From Lachnospiraceae bacterium (GTDB lineage: Bacteria; Bacillota; Clostridia; Lachnospirales; Lachnospiraceae): DNA of 64,000 nt. The DNA lies in contig JAFLTC010000004.1 in NCBI GenBank assembly GCA_022510615.1, positions 1 to 64,000 on the forward strand, read 5' to 3'. Below the pieces are notes generated by a model. The model had not been told where the DNA came from. It was given only the letters and a program-made list of their open reading frames with translations, and did no database searches. The translations under genes and the position numbers were made by a program. This document shows positions 31,647 through 47,764 of this stretch, one piece after another. Position 1 is the stretch's first letter, and each line of letters begins with the position of its first letter.

Positions 31647-32741
31647 TCATCGTGCTAATCCAAGTAACACCTTTAGTAATGCGTCATTCTGTTCCGGCAT
31701 CATAAAGCAGAGACGGATATATTTATTGTTTAAAAACGGGAAAGTCGAGCAGTCCCGTATCATCAGATTTTGGCGGATTGCGGCATCAAAAACGTCAGAA
31801 GAAGTAAAATTTTGATTTAATATTTTGACCAAAACAAAGTTGGCGTGGGCCTGGAAAGTTTTAAAGTCAGGACTGGCCTCCAGCGCCTGGCAGACCCTTG
31901 TTCGCTCGGCGGAAATCAGTTGTCTTGTTTCTTTTATATAATCTTCATCCGTGAACATAATTTCCCCTGCAATGGCGGCAAGGGAATTTATCGTCCACGG
32001 ATTTTTTCTTTGGTTAATTTCCTTTAGTAAATCGTGATTGCCACAGACGGCATAGCCAAGGCGCAGTCCCGGTGCGGCAAAAAACTTGGAGATTCCCCTA
32101 AGAATAATGATGTTGTTATAATATTCCGTCAGGGGAATAGCGGTAACCTCCTCCGGATCCTCGGTAAACTCCACATAGGTTTCATCCACAAGGACGGTAA
32201 TGGATTTTCGTTTACAGTAATCCAGAATATCCCGCATCTGTTCCCGTTTGATAACGGAGGAAGTGGGATTGTTTGGATTACACAAAATTAATAGATCCAC
32301 ATCCTGGGACAGTTCATCTGTTAAGGCGGAGGTGTCCAGCCTGAACTCACCGGCCTCTGTCAGACTAAAATAGTGGGAACGGCCGCCACCCATGGCAACC
32401 TCCCTTTCATATTCCGAATAGGTAGGCCCCACAATAAAAGCCTTTTTTGGGTGAGTAATCTGGATAAACAGGGAAATTAATTCGGTGGAACCATTTCCCA
32501 CTACAATATTGTTAATGTCAGAATGAACATACCCGGCGATACATTTTCGCAGGGAAGTATATTCCCTGTCCGGATATGTGGTGATGGCATTAATGTGTTC
32601 TGTCAGGGTTTCCCTTAACCGAAAGGATACCCCTAGAGGATTGACATTGGCGGAAAAACTGATGATGTTTTCCCTTTTTATGCCATAAATCTGTTCGATT
32701 TTTTCTAAATCACTACCGTGAAAATGTTCTTTTGGCTTCAT
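31647..32741 (-). CDS. Class I/II PLP aminotransferase (HisC/CobD-like)
   Basis: 364 residues of fold-type I PLP enzyme. The N-terminal FSANVNPLGVSFRLRETL and TYPDREYTSLRKCIAGYVHS are typical of the histidinol-phosphate aminotransferase/L-threonine-O-3-phosphate decarboxylase group. GNGSTELISL binds the cofactor phosphate, LCNPNNPTSSVI and DETYVEFTED hold the pyridine ring, and RGISKFFAAPGLRLGYAV carries the Schiff-base Lys. No cobalamin or histidine genes are adjacent, so which reaction it catalyses is open. The N-terminal wording favours CobD-like. Confidence 0.8.
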   Translation of the reverse strand: MKPKEHFHGSDLEKIEQIYGIKRENIISFSANVNPLGVSFRLRETLTEHINAITTYPDREYTSLRKCIAGYVHSDINNIVVGNGSTELISLFIQITHPKKAFIVGPTYSEYEREVAMGGGRSHYFSLTEAGEFRLDTSALTDELSQDVDLLILCNPNNPTSSVIKREQMRDILDYCKRKSITVLVDETYVEFTEDPEEVTAIPLTEYYNNIIILRGISKFFAAPGLRLGYAVCGNHDLLKEINQRKNPWTINSLAAIAGEIMFTDEDYIKETRQLISAERTRVCQALEASPDFKTFQAHANFVLVKILNQNFTSSDVFDAAIRQNLMIRDCSTFPFLNNKYIRLCFMMPEQNDALLKVLLGLAR

Positions 32742-32904
32742 GCGGGCAATTCTCCCTTCTATTTCTTTCCCCTATTATAGCTTTGCGGAGCTTTTTCGTC
32801 AAATAACTATTTCAATATGTAAGAAAAAATGGTATACTATAGAATTGGAATAGACATTAATGCGACATTAATGGTTCGGGATAAAACGTAAGGTGAGGTT
32901 GCAA

Positions 32905-35900
32905 ATGAAAGAAAAGGTCTTGTCACTGGCAAAAGGAAATTTCATATTTGAGGCACCCGGTCTTATTCTGACCCCGGAAAAGCTTGAGTTTACCGTAACA
33001 GCGGGAGAAAAAAGAACAGAAAGCTTTTTGCTTGAAAATGAGAGAGGGACAAAGATAAAAGGCTTCGGTTCTGCCTGGGAAACGGAAATGGAGTTTCTTC
33101 CTGTATTTCACAGCGAGGAAAACAAGCTGGAGGTTACCGTAAATGCGGAGGAGCTTGTGCCGGGAGAACATATCCGGGGGGAACTTGTTCTGGTAACGGA
33201 CTGCGGCGAGTGTCAGCTTCCTTATGACGTTACCGTGGTGGCACCGAAGCTTTCCGATGACAAGGGAACTGTGGACGATTATTTTATGCTGCAGGAAAGA
33301 ATTCAGGAAAATCCGGAAAACGGGGCCAGATTATTCCATGACCCGAACTTTAAAGAGATCTTTTTGTACCGCGATGAGGCGGGAAAAGTTTTATATGAGC
33401 ATCTGCAAAAGAAAAATACGAAAATCCACAGTATGGAAGAGTTTCTTGTGGCAATGGGAAAAAAGCAGGAAATTCGTTTTGAAGTATTGGATGACAAAAA
33501 AAAGCCGGTACGTGAGCTTTATTATGAGTTAAACGGAATCGATATACAGGGCAGTTTGCAAATCCGGGTAAATACATGGGGCAGCACAGGAATCCGTGTG
33601 CACGCTACCGCAGACTTTATCCAGCCGGAGATGCATATTTTGTGGACGGATGAATTTATGGACGGCGGGGATATTCTGGAATTTAGCATCCTGGCAGATA
33701 AGGTTGCCACCGGGAGGAGATATGGCAGCCTGATACTGGAAACCCCTTACCAGAAGCTGGAGATTCCGGTTTGTGCCCATAACCAGTTTGAAAAAAAGGA
33801 ACGCCGGGTGGAACGGGCGAAGAAGGCGGCCTTTCTTACCTTATACCGGACTTATCTCGCCTATGCCGAAGAACGGCTGGACAAGACTGAGTTTCAGGAT
33901 ATGCTGCGAAAAAACCAGAGTGTAATCGAGCGTATTACGCCATATCCTCTGCCGATGATGGGGTATATTCAGGTGATACTCCGGGAGGAAAAAGCGATTC
34001 TGGAATTTTACCAGCAGACGGAATCCGTAGATGCTCCTGTAGTGGGGGCAGAACTGTGGGAGATAGAAAATTATATCCTGATTGAATATATTAAATATTT
34101 ATATAGTAGGCGGGAGGAACAGCAGCTGCGGCTGTTTAGTCTGCTGGAGCAATATAGTGAAAACGGCTATAGCAGTGTGTTGTTGTTTTATCTGAAATTA
34201 ATGCTGGATGACCGGTATGAGTCCGTCCGACTGAGGGAGAAGGATATTAAAGAGCAGTTACGGGCAGGAGAAAACAGTCCTCTTTTGTATTCGGAGCTGA
34301 TGAAGATATACTGCGAGGAGCCGGCACTGATAACGGAGCTGGATGAATATACATTGGCAACAATAAACTATGGATTAAAGGCTGATTTAATAAATGAAGA
34401 ACATGCCGTAGCCATAAGCTTTCTGGCAGAACGGCTGGTTCCGCCAAGACAACTGCCGTTAGTTTTGTCCGTGTTGAAGCGGTTATATGCAAAATTTACT
34501 TTAGAAGATACACTGTGGGCTATTTGTAGTCTCCTTATCCGTAATGAAATTCGGCAGGAGAAATATTTCCCGTGGTTTGAAAAGGGAGTGGAAGAACATC
34601 TGCGTCTGACCGATCTTTATGAATACTATATGTATACGATGGACCGTGCTAACACCTTTTTGCTTCCGGATTCTGTACTGTCCTATTTCCAATATGAAAA
34701 CCATCTGAATGAAACCTGTAAAGCATTTTTATATGCTTATATTGTAAGGCGAAAAGAGGAGCAGCCGGGGGATTTCCATATGTATGGAAACCACATACGG
34801 GAATTTGCCTTAAAACAGCTGGCGGGACACCGAATTAGTGAGGATGTCGGAGTAATCTATGAGGGGCTGTTTCAGGAGGGGAATATACAGGATTTTGTGG
34901 CACAGGAATTGCCATTTGTTATGTTTACCGAGCAGCTAACCTGCCATAATGATAAAATGGAGGGCGTGCTGGTAGTGCACACGGAAACGAAAGAGGAAAC
35001 TTATTATCCATTTACGGAAGGGCAGGCAAAAATCCAGATTTATACCCCGAATTACCAACTGTATTTTGTGGACGGCGAGGGGAATTACTATACCGGAACG
35101 GTAGATTACACGCTAAAAAAGCTTCTGAATCTGGACAAGTTTTCGATATACTGTTACGAAAATGGAGCGGAGCACCCGCATCTTCTGGCCCATCTGGCAG
35201 TGGAGGCAGAGCGGGGTGCCAGATTGACAGAAAAGCAGGCATTGATTTTACAGCAGGCAGTAAAAATGGATTTATTCCGCCCTTATACCCGCGGAAAAAT
35301 GTTACTGCGGTTGTATGACTATTACAACGAAACGAAGGATACGGCTATGCTCCTCGGCGTATTGGATGCCATTTCTCCGGAAGAAATCAAGAGAGAGCGT
35401 CTGGGCGAGGTGGCGACAGACTGCATTTATCATGGGATGTATGATAAGGCGGAGAAAATGCTTTCCCGGTATGGTGTCCGTGGCTGTGGGAAAAAGGCCC
35501 TTGCCATGCTCGTGACGGAAAAAATTCAGGAAAAGAAAAATGAATTTTCCCCGATGCTTGTGAAATGGGCACTGTATTTGTACCGGGAGAACTGCTTTGA
35601 GCGGGGGCTGATGAACTATCTTCTGCAATATTACATGGGGCAGACAAAGACGTTGACTGCCATTTACAACAAATGTCTGGAAATTCCCCAGCTGGTTATC
35701 GATGACGGCTCCAAGGAGCGATTGCTGGGACAGGTGGTATTTACCGGGGAAAACCCGGAACCTTACGAAAAACTGTTTTTAGAATATTACGAAAAGGGAA
35801 ATAACCGTGTGTTGGTGAAGGCATTTTTATCTGTCTTTGCCTATGAGTTTATTGTGGGAAGGTGTACACTTTCTGAGGAAGTATTCCAAAAAATTGAGAA

Positions 35901-36456
35901 GGAAGCCTTTTATGAAAAAGAGAAAGTAATGGTTCTGTCGGCATTGAAATATTACAGTCAGAAGAAGGAATTTTCTAAAAAGCAAAAAGAATTCATTGAG
36001 CTTACTCTGGAGAGCTATGCCAGCGACGGACTGATACTGACCTTTATGAAAGACTTCATCGGCAGGGTGGCGGTGCCTTATGAGATTGAAAATGCCGTGC
36101 TGATTCAGTATAACAGCGGCACGTCAAAGGGGGTATTCCTCTTTGTAAAAAATGAGGAAGGGCAGTTTGTAAGCCAGCCTATGAAGCAGGTGTTTGATGG
36201 TATTTACACCAGTGAGCTGCTGCTCTTTGCCGGGGAAGAAAAAACCTGCTACATCTACGAGGAGGAAACCGATACCCGAAGCGAGGAAATGGTTGTGACA
36301 AGGCCGGAGAATGGGGGAAGCCCGGCGGGCTTTTTCCGGATGGTAAACCAGATGATTGAGGCAAAAGAGGCAGGAGAGGATGAAAAATACTTACAGCTTC
36401 GCAGAGATTATGAGGAAGCGAAGTATATGGCGGGGAAATTGTTTGAGATATTGTAG
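32905..36456 (+). CDS. Large protein of unknown function, DUF5717-like
   Basis: 1183 residues from ATG 32905 (AGGTGAGG upstream). The N-terminal 300 residues look like two beta-sandwich domains (LEFTVTAGEKRTESFLLENE; GEHIRGELVLVTDCGECQLP; RRYGSLILETPYQKLEIPV). A long helical region (about 300-1040) carries TPR-like helices rich in Tyr, Leu and Glu, and the C-terminal part is again beta-rich (NAVLIQYNSGTSKGVFLFVK). No signal peptide or membrane span is seen. From memory it matches Lachnospiraceae proteins catalogued as DUF5717. It heads an operon with a degenerate Hsp70/actin-like protein (12 bp on), so it may be a scaffold or substrate of that protein. Confidence 0.75.
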   Translation: MKEKVLSLAKGNFIFEAPGLILTPEKLEFTVTAGEKRTESFLLENERGTKIKGFGSAWETEMEFLPVFHSEENKLEVTVNAEELVPGEHIRGELVLVTDCGECQLPYDVTVVAPKLSDDKGTVDDYFMLQERIQENPENGARLFHDPNFKEIFLYRDEAGKVLYEHLQKKNTKIHSMEEFLVAMGKKQEIRFEVLDDKKKPVRELYYELNGIDIQGSLQIRVNTWGSTGIRVHATADFIQPEMHILWTDEFMDGGDILEFSILADKVATGRRYGSLILETPYQKLEIPVCAHNQFEKKERRVERAKKAAFLTLYRTYLAYAEERLDKTEFQDMLRKNQSVIERITPYPLPMMGYIQVILREEKAILEFYQQTESVDAPVVGAELWEIENYILIEYIKYLYSRREEQQLRLFSLLEQYSENGYSSVLLFYLKLMLDDRYESVRLREKDIKEQLRAGENSPLLYSELMKIYCEEPALITELDEYTLATINYGLKADLINEEHAVAISFLAERLVPPRQLPLVLSVLKRLYAKFTLEDTLWAICSLLIRNEIRQEKYFPWFEKGVEEHLRLTDLYEYYMYTMDRANTFLLPDSVLSYFQYENHLNETCKAFLYAYIVRRKEEQPGDFHMYGNHIREFALKQLAGHRISEDVGVIYEGLFQEGNIQDFVAQELPFVMFTEQLTCHNDKMEGVLVVHTETKEETYYPFTEGQAKIQIYTPNYQLYFVDGEGNYYTGTVDYTLKKLLNLDKFSIYCYENGAEHPHLLAHLAVEAERGARLTEKQALILQQAVKMDLFRPYTRGKMLLRLYDYYNETKDTAMLLGVLDAISPEEIKRERLGEVATDCIYHGMYDKAEKMLSRYGVRGCGKKALAMLVTEKIQEKKNEFSPMLVKWALYLYRENCFERGLMNYLLQYYMGQTKTLTAIYNKCLEIPQLVIDDGSKERLLGQVVFTGENPEPYEKLFLEYYEKGNNRVLVKAFLSVFAYEFIVGRCTLSEEVFQKIEKEAFYEKEKVMVLSALKYYSQKKEFSKKQKEFIELTLESYASDGLILTFMKDFIGRVAVPYEIENAVLIQYNSGTSKGVFLFVKNEEGQFVSQPMKQVFDGIYTSELLLFAGEEKTCYIYEEETDTRSEEMVVTRPENGGSPAGFFRMVNQMIEAKEAGEDEKYLQLRRDYEEAKYMAGKLFEIL

Positions 36457-36468
36457 AGGGAGGTAAAC

Positions 36469-37665
36469 ATGGGCGAAAGGACATTGCTGTTAGGATACGA
36501 CCTTTGTGATGACAAGACACAGCTTGCCGTCTACAGCCGGGAAAAACTGGAACCGGAACTGGTGGGACAGACGGATGAAAACCCGGATGCACTGTTTGAT
36601 ACGGAAATTATTCTGGAAGATACGGAGGTGCTGACCGGTTTTTTGCCACGGATTCGCCGGGGTGAGGATATTATTGTCAATGGGAAGCGTTCCAATCCGG
36701 TTAATGTACTGGCCTATTATTTTCGGAAAACTTTGTCTATGACAAGACAGGCCTATCCCTCTGAAACCATTAAGCAGTTAGTTATTACCGTCCCGGAGCA
36801 GACGCCGGAATTTACGCTCCTCATCTATGAGGCGTTAGAGATGCTTGGCATAGGGAAGGAGCGGGCGAGAATCATCAGCCACAAACAGAGCTTTCTGTAT
36901 TATATGCTGTACCAGAAAAAGGAGCTCTGGGTCAACGATGTGGGCATGTTTGATTATGATGGCGAACATCTTCATTATTACCAGATGCAGGTGGATAGAC
37001 GAAAAACGCCGATACTTGTCGGTGTGACAGAAAAAGATTTCAGCGAGGGAATGAAGGCGACAGAGGAGGAACAGCGAAAAGGCGTTATCTTTGAGGATAT
37101 TGTATATGGAGCGATTCACAAACAGATTTTGTCTGCCCTGTATATGACCGGTGCCGGTTTCGCCGAGGAATGGTCGGATGAGGTATTCCAGAAGCTCTGT
37201 GTAGGAAGAAGACTGTTTAAGGGGCGTAACCTCTATGTCAGCGGTGCCTGCTACGCGGCAAAGGAGTTGGGTGAGACGGCGAAGCTGGATGATTATCTTT
37301 TGCTTGACGAAGATATGATTTCTTCCCATATATCGCTTCCGATTTATACCGATGCGAAGGAGCAGGAAGTTGTTCTGGTGAAGGCGGGCACGCCTTGGTA
37401 TCAGATTAATCAAGAGTGGGAGCTGATACCCGATGGTGAAAATGAACTGGGTCTGACGGTAAAAAATATTTTTTCCAAGGAAGAGAAAAACCTTATGGTA
37501 GATTTGGAACCGGTGTCCGGGAGGGTGGAACGAAGATGTCGGATTCGTCTTGGGATTCGGTTTGAGGATGTTCATACCTGTACGGTTACGATAAAGGACA
37601 TGGGATTTGGCGAATTGTTTCCGACATCGAACCGTATCTGGGAAAAAACTTTGACGGTAGATTAA
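36469..37665 (+). CDS. Degenerate Hsp70/actin-fold protein, DUF5716-like
   Basis: 398 residues that follow the order of Hsp70/actin ATPase motifs with key residues changed. LLGYDLCDDKTQLAVYS stands at the phosphate-1 position. IKQLVITVPEQTPEFTLLIY matches the 'VITVPAYF' block. IISHKQSFLYYML takes the 'EPTAAALAY' position. NDVGMFDYDGEHLHYYQM lies where DLGGGT is expected, so the Gly-rich phosphate-2 loop is lost. NLYVSGACYAAKELG matches the adenosine motif. ATP hydrolysis is therefore doubtful. GGGAGG precedes the ATG; the next gene begins 14 bp after its stop. From memory the family is DUF5716. Cytoplasmic; function unknown. Confidence 0.72.
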   Translation: MGERTLLLGYDLCDDKTQLAVYSREKLEPELVGQTDENPDALFDTEIILEDTEVLTGFLPRIRRGEDIIVNGKRSNPVNVLAYYFRKTLSMTRQAYPSETIKQLVITVPEQTPEFTLLIYEALEMLGIGKERARIISHKQSFLYYMLYQKKELWVNDVGMFDYDGEHLHYYQMQVDRRKTPILVGVTEKDFSEGMKATEEEQRKGVIFEDIVYGAIHKQILSALYMTGAGFAEEWSDEVFQKLCVGRRLFKGRNLYVSGACYAAKELGETAKLDDYLLLDEDMISSHISLPIYTDAKEQEVVLVKAGTPWYQINQEWELIPDGENELGLTVKNIFSKEEKNLMVDLEPVSGRVERRCRIRLGIRFEDVHTCTVTIKDMGFGELFPTSNRIWEKTLTVD

Positions 37666-37679
37666 AAGGAGGTGCCGGC

Positions 37680-38447
37680 GTGTTTATTTTGTGCAAGGGA
37701 AAGGTGGCAAGAGAACCCTATGAAATGCCCTATACCGGGCAGAAGGTGTATTCTCTGGAGGAACTCTGCTACTATATCTACCACAATATTTACAGCATTA
37801 CGGAGGATTTTTTCGAGGAATCTCTGGCCGTGTGGCTGAAGGAAGAGACGGAGAATACCTTGCTGGCAAAGAAAATAGAGGAAATGCTTGCCGGGAATAA
37901 AAACCTGAAGGATTTAGTCGTAACCATCCTATGTGGCTGCGACTATTACAAGGAAAAGGAAATCCGGGAAATCATTTCAATAATTGACGGCATCGAGAAT
38001 CTTCCGTTGTACCGGAAAAAGAAAATTAAGGCAGATAACTATCTGCGGGCGGGGTACTACGGAAAAAGTCTCCTTGCTTACCGGAAACTCCTTCATGGCA
38101 GTTTTGCCGTGAATTTTACCACGGAGGAATACGGGGATATTTTGCATAATCAGGGAATTGCCCATTTTTATACTTCGTCTTTTGCTGAGGCGGAGACTGA
38201 TTTTAAAGAAGCCTATGTCAGAAACAATAAAAAGGAATCCCTGCTGCATTATTTATGGGTGTTAATGATGCAGAAAAAGGTAAAACTTTTTGAGACCGAG
38301 GCAGTTGCCTTTGGCATGTCACTGGAAGAAATACTGGTGGCAAAGGAGACTTATCAGAAGGCTCTTTCCGGCTGGCGGCTTCCGGAGGAAAGAGAGGACG
38401 ACATTAAGCGATATAAGGAGCAGTTAAAAACGGCATTTTCATGCTAG
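37680..38447 (+). CDS. TPR-like protein of the DUF5716/5717 operon
   Basis: 255 residues starting at GTG 37680 behind AAAAGGAGG. The first 110 residues (MFILCKGKVAREPYEMPYTG, VYSLEELCYYIYHNIYSITE) form a helical N-domain. About 130-215 have TPR-like helix pairs (ADNYLRAGYYGKSLLAYRKL; ILHNQGIAHFYTSSFAEAE; DFKEAYVRNNKKESLLHYLW). It has no membrane span. It overlaps the next gene by seven bases, which implies coupled translation. Probably an assembly or scaffolding partner of the Hsp70-like protein; no family name is certain. Confidence 0.65.
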   Translation: MFILCKGKVAREPYEMPYTGQKVYSLEELCYYIYHNIYSITEDFFEESLAVWLKEETENTLLAKKIEEMLAGNKNLKDLVVTILCGCDYYKEKEIREIISIIDGIENLPLYRKKKIKADNYLRAGYYGKSLLAYRKLLHGSFAVNFTTEEYGDILHNQGIAHFYTSSFAEAETDFKEAYVRNNKKESLLHYLWVLMMQKKVKLFETEAVAFGMSLEEILVAKETYQKALSGWRLPEEREDDIKRYKEQLKTAFSC

Positions 38448-39676
38448 AAAGAGAGGCGGCAGGGTTGCAGTTTCGTTTATTCAGGAAAAAAGATATGGAT
38501 ACCCCACCGGAGACTGTGTCGGAGGAACCGGAGGTAACCGTTGAGCAGTTAGTCAACGAGCCGGTAAAGGTAGAAAAAGAAAAGGTGGATATCAGCAATG
38601 ACCGTGCCAGAATTGAATATCTGGGGCGGCTCCATGACGGTATTCTGGAGGCAAAGAGACAGTGCGGGGAAATCAAATTTGAATATGGACAGGTTACCTC
38701 TTATCTGAAGGATATCCAGTTAATCGATCAGGCGCCGGCGGAGGAAAAAACAGAGATGTATGCGGCGGCAAGGCGTATTGTGGAGCTGACAGAGGAGCGT
38801 CTGCATTTGCAGCGGCAGAAATATAAAATGACAGATGCCCAGAAGCGTGCCATGGAAAATTATGAGCCTACGGTGCGGGAAGATATTCAGAAACTGCTGG
38901 AGTACGAGGATTATCAGGTAAAAATAAAGAATGATTTACGACAGTTAAGCAGTGAGAAAAGCCTTTTACTTGCGGATAAACGGGATATTATCCGTGGACA
39001 GCGCACCTTAAAGACCATCGGAAAATGTCTGGCGGCAATTTTAATTGCCCTTGGTACGATGCTGCTAGCCTTAGCCTTTTGCTTTAAAGTAGACATTACC
39101 TTTCCTTTTGTGGCGACGGTGGCCTTTGGGTTTGTCATTGCTGCCATTATACTGAATGAGGCCAGAAAAAACCGGATTGACATGGTTATTACGGAGAAAA
39201 AATGTAACCGTGCCATATTTTTAACGAACCGTGTCAAAATCAAATATGTCAATAACGTGAGGACATTAGATTATCTCTATCAGAAATATCAGGTGAGAAA
39301 TGCCACGGAGTTAGATTTTGTATACGGGCAATACAGAAAGGCAAAGAGAGAGTGGGCAAGGCAGCGGGAGAGTACGATACAGATTAATGAAAATAACCAA
39401 ATACTGATGCAGGAATTACAGCGGCTTGGTGTAAAAGACAGAGATATCTGGTTTGCTCAGGCAAAGGCACTCATAGAGCCGAAGGAAATGGTAGAGGTGC
39501 GCCACGATTTGAATGTGCGGCGACAGAAGCTGAGAGAGCAGTTGGATTATAATACCGGTGTCATGGAAGAATGTCTGGAAGAGATGGAAAAAATCCGGGA
39601 TAAAAAACCAGAATATGCAGTAGAAGTGGAGCGAATACTGAGTCAGGAGATGAAAGTAAATGAAGCCGGAAATTGA
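38441..39676 (+). CDS. Coiled-coil membrane protein of the DUF5716/5717 operon
   Basis: 411 residues. After an acidic N-terminus a long coiled coil runs to about residue 180 (RARIEYLGRLHDGILEAKRQ; RIVELTEERLHLQRQKYKMT). Two membrane spans close together follow (CLAAILIALGTMLLALAFCF; ITFPFVATVAFGFVIAAIIL, about 190-235), then a second coiled coil to the end. The hairpin anchor leaves both coils on the cytoplasmic side. This makes it the likely membrane anchor for the soluble partners. It starts seven bases before the previous stop, and thiE begins 17 bases before its own stop. Confidence 0.68.
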   Translation: MLEREAAGLQFRLFRKKDMDTPPETVSEEPEVTVEQLVNEPVKVEKEKVDISNDRARIEYLGRLHDGILEAKRQCGEIKFEYGQVTSYLKDIQLIDQAPAEEKTEMYAAARRIVELTEERLHLQRQKYKMTDAQKRAMENYEPTVREDIQKLLEYEDYQVKIKNDLRQLSSEKSLLLADKRDIIRGQRTLKTIGKCLAAILIALGTMLLALAFCFKVDITFPFVATVAFGFVIAAIILNEARKNRIDMVITEKKCNRAIFLTNRVKIKYVNNVRTLDYLYQKYQVRNATELDFVYGQYRKAKREWARQRESTIQINENNQILMQELQRLGVKDRDIWFAQAKALIEPKEMVEVRHDLNVRRQKLREQLDYNTGVMEECLEEMEKIRDKKPEYAVEVERILSQEMKVNEAGN

Positions 39677-40289
39677 TTATACCCTGTATCTGTGTACCGA
39701 CAGGGAACTTATGACGACAGATACGATAGAGGAATCGGTGGAGCTTGCCATAAAGGGAGGCATTACTGTTGTGCAACTCAGGGAAAAAAACAGCACCTCC
39801 AGAGAGTTTTATAAACTGGCACATGGTGTGAAGGAAATTACGGATGCCTATGAAATTCCTCTGATCATTAATGACCGTATTGATATTGCTATGGCGGTGG
39901 GGGCAGATGGAGTTCATCTGGGTCAAAAGGATATGCCGATACAGGCGGCGAGAAATCTTCTGGGATCGGATAAGATCGTGGGAGCTACGGCAAATACAGT
40001 GGAAGCTGCGGTAGAAGCGTGGAAAAACGGTGCCGATTACCTCGGTGTGGGGGATGTGTTTGGCACGAGTACAAAGGCAGATACCACCCACATTACTCTG
40101 GAAGAACTAAAAAAAATCCGCCTGGCGGTACAGATACCGGTAGTGGCAATAGGCGGAGTAAATGCAGAAAATATATCCCTGTTACGGGAAACCGGCGTTG
40201 AGGGAGCTGCCGTTATCTCTGCCATCGTAGGTCAGAAGGATATTACGGCAGCAGCGGAAACACTTATCGCAAATTTTCGAGGAGCATAA
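39660..40289 (+). CDS. thiE: Thiamine phosphate synthase
   Basis: 209 residues of TIM-barrel ThiE. YLCTDRELM, VQLREKNSTSREFY, LIINDRIDIAMAVGADGVHL with GQKDMP, GATANTVEAA, ADYLGVGDVFGTSTKAD, and VAIGGVN with the phosphate-binding AAVISAIV are all in order. It joins HMP-pyrophosphate with thiazole phosphate. No other thiamine genes are near; it is co-directional and overlaps the coiled-coil gene. Its 3' end overlaps the converging PHP gene by 26 bp. Confidence 0.93.
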   Translation: MKPEIDYTLYLCTDRELMTTDTIEESVELAIKGGITVVQLREKNSTSREFYKLAHGVKEITDAYEIPLIINDRIDIAMAVGADGVHLGQKDMPIQAARNLLGSDKIVGATANTVEAAVEAWKNGADYLGVGDVFGTSTKADTTHITLEELKKIRLAVQIPVVAIGGVNAENISLLRETGVEGAAVISAIVGQKDITAAAETLIANFRGA

Positions 40290-41638: not shown

Positions 41639-41719
41639 AAGTAAAATTTTACTTTGAAAAATAAAAAAGTTGTGGTATCTTATTTCACAAAGAATGCAAT
41701 GTACCAAAGGAAAGATACG

Positions 41720-42623
41720 ATGAATAAGGACGAAGGAATCCGGCTGAATGCCGAGGAAGTGCTAAAAGAATATTCCAATATGGTCTTCCGCCTTGCTTTT
41801 GCCAGGGTGGGAAATGTCAGTGATGCACAGGATGTTATGCAGGAGGTATTTCTCAAATACATGCAATATAAGAAAACCTTCAAGGATAAGGAGCAACTCA
41901 AGGCGTGGCTGATTCGCGTAACGATTAATACAGCCCCAAATATGGTCACCTCTGCCTGGCACCGTCATACTACCGGACTGGAAGAAGCGGATGCCGCTGA
42001 ATTACCGGCTTCTCTGACAACGGCAACCAATACAACGGCTACTGTAACATGGAACATTGCAAAGGCGCAGGAAGCGGTAAATTACTATGGTAGAACCTTA
42101 GTTGGCTTTCGTCTGAGTTACTGGTCATTGGAACAAAATAAGGATGTGGTAGTGACTACGGTAGCTCCTACGGTAAATACATACACTTTCCGTAAAATGG
42201 CAGGGTTATTCCAATGTAAGCGGGTATCAGGCAAACCTATATAACCGCAAGGGAAAACTGGTTGAATCAAAAACCATTTCCAACCAGTATATCAATTACT
42301 GTACCTTCAGTAAGGCAAACACAAAAAACGTATATTTTGTAAAGGTACGCATGTACTATACATATGGCGGTGTGACAACCTGGTCCAAGTGGTCGGCAAA
42401 CTTTAATGCCGTACCACAGGCAAAAATTAAGGCTAAGAAAAAATGGACGAAGGTAAAGACATTGAAGGCAAAATCCGGCAGCTATACTTTTACCAAATTG
42501 AAAAAGAAAAGAATCACAGTAAATGCAGTCGGTTATGACTTGCAAGTAAGAACAACCGGCAAAGTAAATGGTAAAAAGATGAATTCTACTTCGTACTATT
42601 ACACAAATTACTATTTAATTTAG
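41720..42623 (+). pseudogene. Chimera: 5' part of an ECF sigma gene fused to the 3' part of a secreted fibronectin-like protein
   Basis: ATG 41720 (AAAGGAAAG upstream) begins a normal ECF region 2: EYSNMVFRLAFARVGNVSDA, QDVMQEVFLKYMQ and LKAWLIRVTINT. At about 41937 the sequence changes abruptly to a beta-rich secreted-protein sequence (HTTGLEEADAAELPASLTTA; VTWNIAKAQEAVNYYGRTLV) in the same frame, and region 4 is missing. Around 42200 a frameshift stops this frame, while another continues as GYSNVSGYQANLYNRKGK, VYFVKVRMYYTYGGVTTWSK and a Lys-rich Ig/Fn3-like end to 42623. A deletion joined two genes, then a frameshift followed. It is probably non-functional, though region 2 alone may still be made. 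Confidence 0.75.
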
Positions 42624-46759: not shown

Positions 46760-47764
46760 GTGGCGTTTGATATTGGGATAGATTTAGGAACCGCCAGTAT
46801 TCTGGTTTATGTGAGGGGCAAGGGAGTTGTTTTAAAAGAGCCCAGTGTGGTTGCTTTTGACCGCGATACAAACAGAATTAAAGCTATTGGTGAGGAAGCA
46901 CGTCTGATGTTAGGACGTACCCCGGGAAACATTGTAGCTGTTCGTCCTCTCCGCCAAGGTGTTATTTCAGATTATACCGTAACGGAGAAGATGTTAAAAT
47001 ATTTTATTCAGAAGGCAGTGGGCAAGCAGAGATTCCGCAAGCCTCTGATCAGTATCTGTGTGCCGAGCCAGGTTACCGAAGTGGAGAGAAAAGCTGTAGA
47101 GGATGCGGCGTTTCAGGCAGGTGCCAGAGACGTAAAGATTATCGAAGAGCCGATTGCGGCGGCGATAGGTGCCGGCATTGACATTGCCAGACCATGTGGA
47201 AACATGATTGTCGACATCGGCGGTGGTACATCGGATATCGCCGTGATTTCTCTCGGTGGAACGGTTGTCAGCACTTCCATTAAAATTGCGGGAGATGACT
47301 TTGATGATGCCATTGTCCGTTATATGAGGAAAAAGCATAATCTGTTGATTGGTGAGAGAACTGCCGAGGATATTAAAATCCGTATTGGTTCCGCTTTCCC
47401 ACGGCCGGAAAGCGTATCGGTGGACGTCAGGGGGCGTAACCTTGTGACAGGACTTCCTAAGACGATTACCGTTACTTCCGAGGAAACGGAAGAGGCCCTA
47501 AAGGATACAACAGCACAGATTGTGGAAGCTGTACACAGTGTATTGGAAAAAACTCCGCCGGAGTTGGCTGCGGACATCGCAGACAGAGGTATTGTACTGA
47601 CAGGAGGCGGAAGTTTATTATATGGTCTGGAGGAGTTAATTGAATCCAAGACCGGAATCACGACAATGACCGCAGAGGAGCCTATGACGGCGGTTGCCAT
47701 TGGTACCGGAAAATATGTTGAATTTTTAAGTGGCAATACCGGTACCGGTAACGAAGAATCATAA
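46760..47764 (+). CDS. mbl: Rod-shape determining actin homologue Mbl/MreB
   Basis: 334 residues with complete actin-fold motifs: DIGIDLGTASILVYVRGKGV (phosphate 1), CVPSQVTEVERKAVEDAA, IIEEPIAAAIGAGI, MIVDIGGGTSDIAVISLGG (phosphate 2), and GIVLTGGGSLLYGLEELI (adenosine). It polymerises on the membrane to direct sidewall synthesis. The start is GTG 46760 behind AAAGGAG. The order with flhO-flhP-like genes after it matches the B. subtilis mbl-flhO-flhP group, hence Mbl is chosen over MreB. Confidence 0.93.
   Translation: MAFDIGIDLGTASILVYVRGKGVVLKEPSVVAFDRDTNRIKAIGEEARLMLGRTPGNIVAVRPLRQGVISDYTVTEKMLKYFIQKAVGKQRFRKPLISICVPSQVTEVERKAVEDAAFQAGARDVKIIEEPIAAAIGAGIDIARPCGNMIVDIGGGTSDIAVISLGGTVVSTSIKIAGDDFDDAIVRYMRKKHNLLIGERTAEDIKIRIGSAFPRPESVSVDVRGRNLVTGLPKTITVTSEETEEALKDTTAQIVEAVHSVLEKTPPELAADIADRGIVLTGGGSLLYGLEELIESKTGITTMTAEEPMTAVAIGTGKYVEFLSGNTGTGNEES

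Follow-up and report, generated by a model that had tools for sequence, protein, structure and literature searches.

We analysed a window of 64,000 nt of DNA from a Lachnospiraceae bacterium (assembly GCA_022510615.1, contig JAFLTC010000004.1, positions 1–64,000), which carries on its forward strand, at positions 32905–39676, an operon of four genes. Gene 2 of this operon encodes an Hsp70 derivative, made of a nucleotide-binding domain (NBD) and the β part of a substrate-binding domain (SBD-beta), that has neither the catalytic residues nor subdomain IIB nor the lid of DnaK. By profile comparison, genes 1 to 4 correspond as orthologues to A+B, E, H and I in an eight- to nine-gene operon found in other families of the same order, where the gene order is fixed as A-B-C-D-E-F-G-H-(I). 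As read from its sequences, this long operon encodes three Hsp70s whose ATPase residues are intact (C, F and G-VWA), together with a pseudo-Hsp70 (E) and a protein with a GrpE domain (D). Loss of C, D, F and G in the Lachnospiraceae is probable, and the operon left to them is likely to encode a scaffold whose core is an Hsp70 no longer able to act as an ATPase.

Gene 2 encodes an Hsp70 derivative without catalytic residues

Gene 2 (36469–37665; 398 aa) matched DUF5716_C in a family scan (E = 3.3e-103), and gene 1 (32905–36456; 1183 aa) matched DUF5717_N (E = 1.8e-203) and DUF5717 (E = 1.9e-56). The family names given in the original prediction were thus right: both genes lie over the curated cut-offs of the Pfam entries (PF18980, PF18983, PF18984), which give no function. 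The original prediction also described the gene 2 product as Hsp70/actin-like. We compared family alignments with hhalign, using 44 sequences for the genes of the window's family (24 for gene 4), 10 for DnaK and 6 for MreB; the E-values are those of single comparisons. The Hsp70 half of the description stands, with probabilities of 95–100% against DnaK and families C, E, F and G. The alignment with DnaK (95.1%, E = 3e-8) covers 384 columns and spans both NBD and SBD-beta, as expected of common ancestry over the two domains; E was matched at 4e-55, F at 99.7% and 1e-25, and C and G at 95–96%. The actin-like half, in the sense of MreB, does not stand (5.5% over 83 columns against the six MreB sequences), and we rejected kinship with MreB. 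In profile searches against solved structures, gene 2 gave one chance-level match and gene 1 two weak ones (0.02 and 0.27), and the E protein of an example long-operon locus, L033, matched DnaK at 4e-10.

The claim that gene 2 encodes a pseudo-ATPase was borne out across the gene-2 family. In a joint alignment, the equivalents of DnaK T11, T12, K70, E171 and T199 are all kept in every C (31/31), F (32/32) and G (27/27) protein, as are the phosphate-2 Asp and GGGT. The five residues occur together in none of the 34 E and none of the 44 gene-2 proteins; K70 has no equivalent in any protein of either set, and at least one of the five survives in 9 E and 7 gene-2 proteins. Residue by residue, the 44 gene-2 proteins retain T12 in 4 cases, T199 in 3, and K70, E171 and T11 in none. 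Since E proteins also lack the full set, the pseudo-ATPase state predates the Lachnospiraceae. An intact phosphate-1 (GxDxGTT) or phosphate-2 (DxGG[GSA]T) loop was found in 0 of 124 distinct gene-2 proteins (128 proteins from loci of the window's type, three of them short frames). In the window, profile alignment places GYDLCDDKT (36493–36519) at the DnaK phosphate-1 loop GIDLGTTNS, DYDGEHLH (residues 162–169; 36952–36975) at the phosphate-2 loop DLGGGTFD, and TGAGF (37147–37161) at the adenosine motif VGGST. The original prediction had correctly called the phosphate-2 loop degenerate, and had located it at DVGMFDYDG; the DnaK profile moves the register to DYDGEHLH.

A lobe of the NBD is missing as well. 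The distance from the phosphate-2 loop to the adenosine motif is 143 residues in DnaK, a median of 143.5 in E, and 71 (59–77) in gene 2, in 44/44 proteins. About 72 residues are therefore absent, with alignment gaps at DnaK profile columns 205–245 and 252–281; spacing and gaps place the approximate site at 37036–37086. Taking the phosphate-2 Asp, at column 174, as D194, the missing stretch presumably corresponds to about residues 225–301 of E. coli DnaK, that is, subdomain IIB. Subdomain IIB is a lobe that contacts GrpE, and the gene-2 lineage that lacks it also lacks the GrpE-domain gene D. An SBD-beta-like domain follows (37315–37662), aligned with DnaK up to profile column 472. The helical lid is absent by length (a median of 171 residues past the adenosine motif, compared with 305.5 in DnaK), and by the same measure it is absent from C, E and F.

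Some conservation persists at the former active site. In a 75-row alignment G9 is invariant and D11 and H138, the latter at the place of DnaK E171, are nearly so, and the phosphate-2 Asp is kept in 29 of the 44 gene-2 proteins. These features would suit a divergent ATPase that binds nucleotide and slowly turns it over through a rebuilt site. Given that the ATPase residues are nearly all gone, that no intact loop occurs in the 124 proteins and that subdomain IIB is missing, we consider this very unlikely.

A longer operon with several Hsp70-type genes in sister families

The family composition of the long operon was read from scans of L033. A matches DUF5717_N positions 8–305, and B matches positions 303–872 plus DUF5717; C (1.8e-77) and F (2.5e-57) match HSP70, and G matches HSP70 (2.5e-95) followed by a VWA domain. 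E matches both HSP70 (E = 1.9e-16) and DUF5716_C (E = 1.8e-25). D carries a GrpE domain (1.4e-14), which exceeded the Pfam cut-off in all 11 D proteins scanned (that of L033 and ten more). H is a TPR protein, and I, with no Pfam match over cut-off, has the look of a coiled coil.

We ran profiles of the long-operon families on 41 stretches from outside the window's family (f1, which we read as Lachnospiraceae from named loci). One stretch, L122, the continuation of L092, gave no hit. In the 40 loci with hits the gene order was never permuted, and A to H were complete and in order in 22, with some loci cut at an end of the stretch; in four genomes (G040, G457, G478 and G513) the set is spread over several contigs. 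Family I turned up less often in long operons than A to H did, and its profile was built from 7 sequences, so we are less sure that it belonged to the ancestral operon. The VWA part of G has the metal-site motif DTT[GS]SM in 27/27 proteins and DxSxS in 0/27. Among the long-operon families only F (10 of 32 proteins) and H (1 of 23) show the J-domain motif HPD, and no DnaJ family was among the matches listed for the nine L033 proteins.

Two further features of the long operon were seen in passing. In C proteins (for example L033:4676-6355) a tail like TELSVDELY recurs at the C terminus past the substrate-binding domain (12 of 31 tails listed) and is possibly a docking motif. In one genome of family f19 (L101:9820-14968) about 5 kb separates D from E; the operon is tight in most other loci.

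Literature searches (open-licence papers) yielded no description of the long operon and, in line with the original prediction, no described function for the short one. The term DUF5716 appeared only in work on an unrelated subject, as judged by title. For clustered Hsp70/GrpE/VWA genes and Lachnospiraceae signature proteins, the only relevant work in the same literature was the study of GAP1-N2 systems by Kaur et al. 2020 (PMC7159879). These systems cluster HSP70, GrpE, TPR and, in related themes, vWA components, with possible membrane association, and the conflict loci described include HSP70 with GrpE, a second HSP70 and FNIII-TPR proteins. The long operon shares the HSP70, GrpE, TPR and VWA parts, and a role in anti-phage defence or conflict, like that of GAP1-N2/HSP70-GrpE systems, might be suspected. 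However, GAP1-N2 systems centre on a GTPase/GAP1, whereas the long operon has four Hsp70-type genes, and neither L033 A–I nor genes 1–4 gave a GTPase or GAP1 match in Pfam or NCBIfam; the window operon, moreover, has no match to an HSP70 ATPase or to GrpE in genes 1–4. Only 1 of 28 B proteins showed a P-loop (Walker A) pattern, and none of the other families tested did. PADLOC gave only partial matches, none of them convincing: F, G and C matched PDC-M61B (5.5e-9 to 4e-5) over the Hsp70 part only, I matched JetC at 4.7e-5 and gene 3 a Cas6 model at 0.0023, and genes 1, 2 and 4 matched nothing. Nor does the near-universal, vertically inherited distribution in f1, described below, resemble the patchy spread expected of defence, and we find a conflict role highly improbable. 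A second published comparison is Myxococcus xanthus (PMC8265645), a single bacterium that likewise has many paralogues of Hsp70; the start of the abstract mentions no operon of this kind.

The four genes correspond to A+B, E, H and I

Gene 1 aligned with A at E = 6e-44 and with B at E = 3e-88, the B profile set including a few fused A-B proteins. It is a fusion of A and B, the A-derived part, for which the original prediction suggests a beta-sandwich character, being approximately residues 1–300 (32905–33804; hhalign columns 12–304 against A). DUF5717_N is a single 875-position unit in Pfam, which in the other families is split over genes A and B. Gene 3 (37680–38447; 255 aa), with weak TPR matches in the family scan and an N-terminal signature VYSLEEL (37746–37766), aligned with H at 99.9% (E = 2.5e-33), as a short orthologue. 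Gene 4 (38441–39676; 411 aa), with no significant match in the family scan, aligned with I at 100% (E = 9.6e-43). The remaining pairs of gene and family reached at most 33.3%, the highest being gene 1 with H. In three f1 genera (L112–L114) the gene-1 proteins are short, 876–926 aa, and are without about positions 186–521 of DUF5717_N.

The short operon as a probable reduced form of the long one

We built trees of E and gene 2 rooted on DnaK, in one quick and one careful run. Gene 2 forms a single clade (support 99, starred, in the quick tree; 100/99, starred, in the careful one), and its sister is E of family f4, locus L034 (100, starred; 100/100, starred). The next branch is E of f22 (96, starred; 93/88), all of these nesting inside E, and E plus gene 2 is sister to F (100/100, starred, in the careful tree). 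Gene 2 nests within E, and C, D, F and G are present in f4, f22 and the other long-operon families, so a single loss of these four genes in the Lachnospiraceae is the simplest account. In L034 (5205–8384), whose E is nearest to gene 2, G and H are each split over two frames, which may reflect decay or a sequencing error.

A similar reduction occurs elsewhere in the order. One genome of family f16 (G051; locus L041, 4817–9916) has only A, B and E, and A to H are all there in the related genomes G472 and G491; the HSP70 (PF00012) matches in G051 are DnaK, two of MreB size, and E. The two reductions, in f1 and f16, are apparently independent, and both kept A/B with the pseudo-Hsp70 and dropped the ATPases.

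In a census of HSP70 matches in 18 f1 genomes, classed by extent and frame length rather than by tree, we found no C-, F- or G-like match. Eleven of the genomes had DnaK and short matches of MreB/EutJ size only, and seven had further matches of other make-up. DnaK is thus the sole full-length Hsp70 in those 11, and in the sister families E is adjoined by dedicated Hsp70 ATPases. Gene 2 could on these grounds be an Hsp110-like co-chaperone, a nucleotide-exchange-like partner of ordinary DnaK, which would have replaced C, F and G, with genes 1, 3 and 4 localising DnaK to the membrane; the TPR-type protein encoded in the operon would suit such a role. Hsp70–Hsp110 pairs, however, use surfaces in subdomain IIB and the linker, and gene 2 has neither subdomain IIB nor the linker pattern. 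Family scans of genes 1–4 gave no DnaK, GrpE or J-domain match, and the analysis gave no sign of contact with DnaK. We regard this explanation as unlikely.

Distribution in the order

In a sample of 398 genomes from across the phylum, PF18984, the mark of gene 1, was present in 5, all of them f1; within the order it was present in 279 of 393. Sixty of the latter belong to other families (60/173) and, by subtraction, 219 to f1, and we take gene 1 to be present in 219 of the 220 f1 genomes sampled; the total of 220 was adopted because G797 was the only f1 genome among the no-match rows listed, which are apparently sorted by kinship and beyond which there are 94 more. G797 was among the 18 genomes of the HSP70 census. 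PF18980 was found in the genome of the window itself and in 34 of the 36 others of its genus, the two without it being 68% and 87% complete; among genomes of other families, 11 of 24 had it. A search for named loci gave 140 pattern matches, 98 of them confirmed, and the best 80 of the 98 were kept. These include Anaerocolumna, Herbinix hemicellulosilytica, [Clostridium] polysaccharolyticum, Velocimicrobium porci and Anaeromicropila populeti; many are titled Lachnospiraceae, others Clostridiales or Eubacterium, and one is a metagenome-assembled genome (MAG) titled Anaerolineaceae.

A class-wide search with a long-type B profile matched 28 of 393 genomes, 20 of them f1. The eight matches elsewhere are short (61–161 columns in frames of 225–354 aa, E = 1.1e-9 to 3.8e-4), and we read them as generic TPR likeness. 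At that sensitivity the search showed no operon outside the order; among the matches listed there was no long-operon family beyond f1 to serve as a positive control. The near-universal retention of the operon in f1 suggests a housekeeping role.

We also asked how the operon is distributed relative to sporulation and motility genes. Outside f1, flagellin occurs in 24 of 25 genomes with the operon and in 13 of 19 without it, as would be seen if the operon were part of the flagellum; ancestry, however, confounds this contrast. By SpoIVA the same groups cannot be told apart (21/25 with, 16/19 without). Among 35 f1 genomes with the operon, 21 have SpoIVA and 22 have flagellin, and one f1 genome, G660, has gene 1 and yet neither. 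A part in sporulation or the flagellum is largely refuted for the Lachnospiraceae form by G660 and the 35-genome counts, and we think such a role extremely improbable.

Conservation of the gene neighbourhood

A survey of gene order across relatives, which the original prediction had proposed, found genes 1, 2 and 3 adjacent and on the same strand in 124 of 125 f1-type loci holding all three (120 of 121 distinct loci after removal of four fetched twice). In the exception, L172:5163-7289, from a MAG, genes 2 and 3 form one frame of 708 aa with an E part (1–420) and an H part (433–708).

Gene 4 was found in 89 of the 125 loci with genes 1–3, some of the others being cut by contig ends, and in 24 of 48 loci in a set with mostly long flanks. 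Hydropathy supports the two-helix membrane hairpin that had been predicted in its product, at residues 190–221 and 222–242 (39008–39166 for the predicted hairpin as a whole), in the centre of a coiled coil. A mid-protein hydrophobic stretch, one long or two neighbouring, fits a hairpin in 24/24 gene-4 proteins; in the protein from the window the two arms show modest hydrophobic periodicity (shuffle p = 0.018 and 0.064).

By pattern, valS lies downstream in 18 of 126 f1 loci (at 3–3507 bp), 88 bp downstream in L034 of f4 and in none of the other long-operon loci; by eye it is also downstream in L033. A genomic location shared by the short and long operons is only hinted at by this.

Proposed role of the operon

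We infer that the Lachnospiraceae operon is probably a protein-binding scaffold, not an ATP-driven chaperone, given that only the dead Hsp70 and its partners remain. In the full operon, E would be an Hsp70 subunit that does not itself cycle and that holds on to clients or partners on behalf of the three ATPases; D would be the exchange factor of C, F and G, A/B the scaffold, H a TPR adaptor and I the membrane anchor. In the Lachnospiraceae the cycling part would have been lost, and the SBD-beta of gene 2 would bind a peptide or partner constitutively. The products of genes 1 and 3 would arrange the gene 2 product, and gene 4, where present, would tether it to the membrane. The four proteins may form a complex, as first proposed from the window, and the in-frame fusion of genes 2 and 3 in L172 lends some help to this view.

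Several points weigh against this interpretation or parts of it. SBD-beta is the weaker-aligned half of the alignment of gene 2 with DnaK, the hydrophobic linker of DnaK (LLLDV) is not conserved across the gene-2 family (the window protein has LLLDE), and the pseudo-site could still bind nucleotide with altered chemistry. E and gene 2 stand on a long stem, with several long rows in both trees, and in the careful tree the f22 fork carries no star and the two f22 branches that meet are long. G051 is 96% complete in 150 contigs, and a gene missing from it could fall in an assembly gap. The fusion in L172 is a single MAG case, possibly an assembly or sequencing error. Finally, gene 4 was not found in many loci, so membrane tethering cannot be a universal part of the mechanism.

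Locus layout

The four genes are co-directional and tightly spaced as originally described, with gaps of 12 and 14 bp and then a 7-bp overlap. The open frame of gene 1 extends from a GTG (32893–36456); we place the start at the ATG at 32905, which is preceded by a ribosome-binding site, aaggtgag (32890–32897), read in the sequence. An aminotransferase gene lies upstream in divergent orientation (31647–32741), and transcription most likely starts between it and gene 1. Downstream, thiE (39660–40289) shares 17 bp with the end of gene 4 and is perhaps transcribed together with the operon.

Elsewhere in the window, the frame at 41654–42244 has a start like an extracytoplasmic function (ECF) sigma factor and, by eye, a fibronectin-III-like end, and looks chimeric, through a deletion or an assembly join. 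There is also an MreB-like gene at 46760–47764, and a second HSP70 match of MreB size is on another contig of the same genome (C97).

Significance

Lachnospiraceae are among the dominant bacteria of the human gut, and the operon described here is near-universal in them and without any role found in our literature searches. The sister families offer a natural dissection of the system, with a full four-Hsp70 operon, a reduced A-B-E form and the four-gene form. The loss of subdomain IIB and of the GrpE-domain gene in the same lineage is a possible case of co-evolution. The system makes it testable whether an Hsp70 fold persists for long without an ATPase cycle, and what part a pseudo-Hsp70 plays in an assembly of Hsp70s. 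We would give even chances to the fullest version of our proposal, in which the order has a dedicated multi-Hsp70 machine with a pseudo-Hsp70 at its heart, and in which the Lachnospiraceae, and once more a member of f16, shed every ATPase and were left with an ATP-free, peptide-binding structural scaffold that nearly the whole family needs. If this is true, a chaperone system has here been turned into a structural one.

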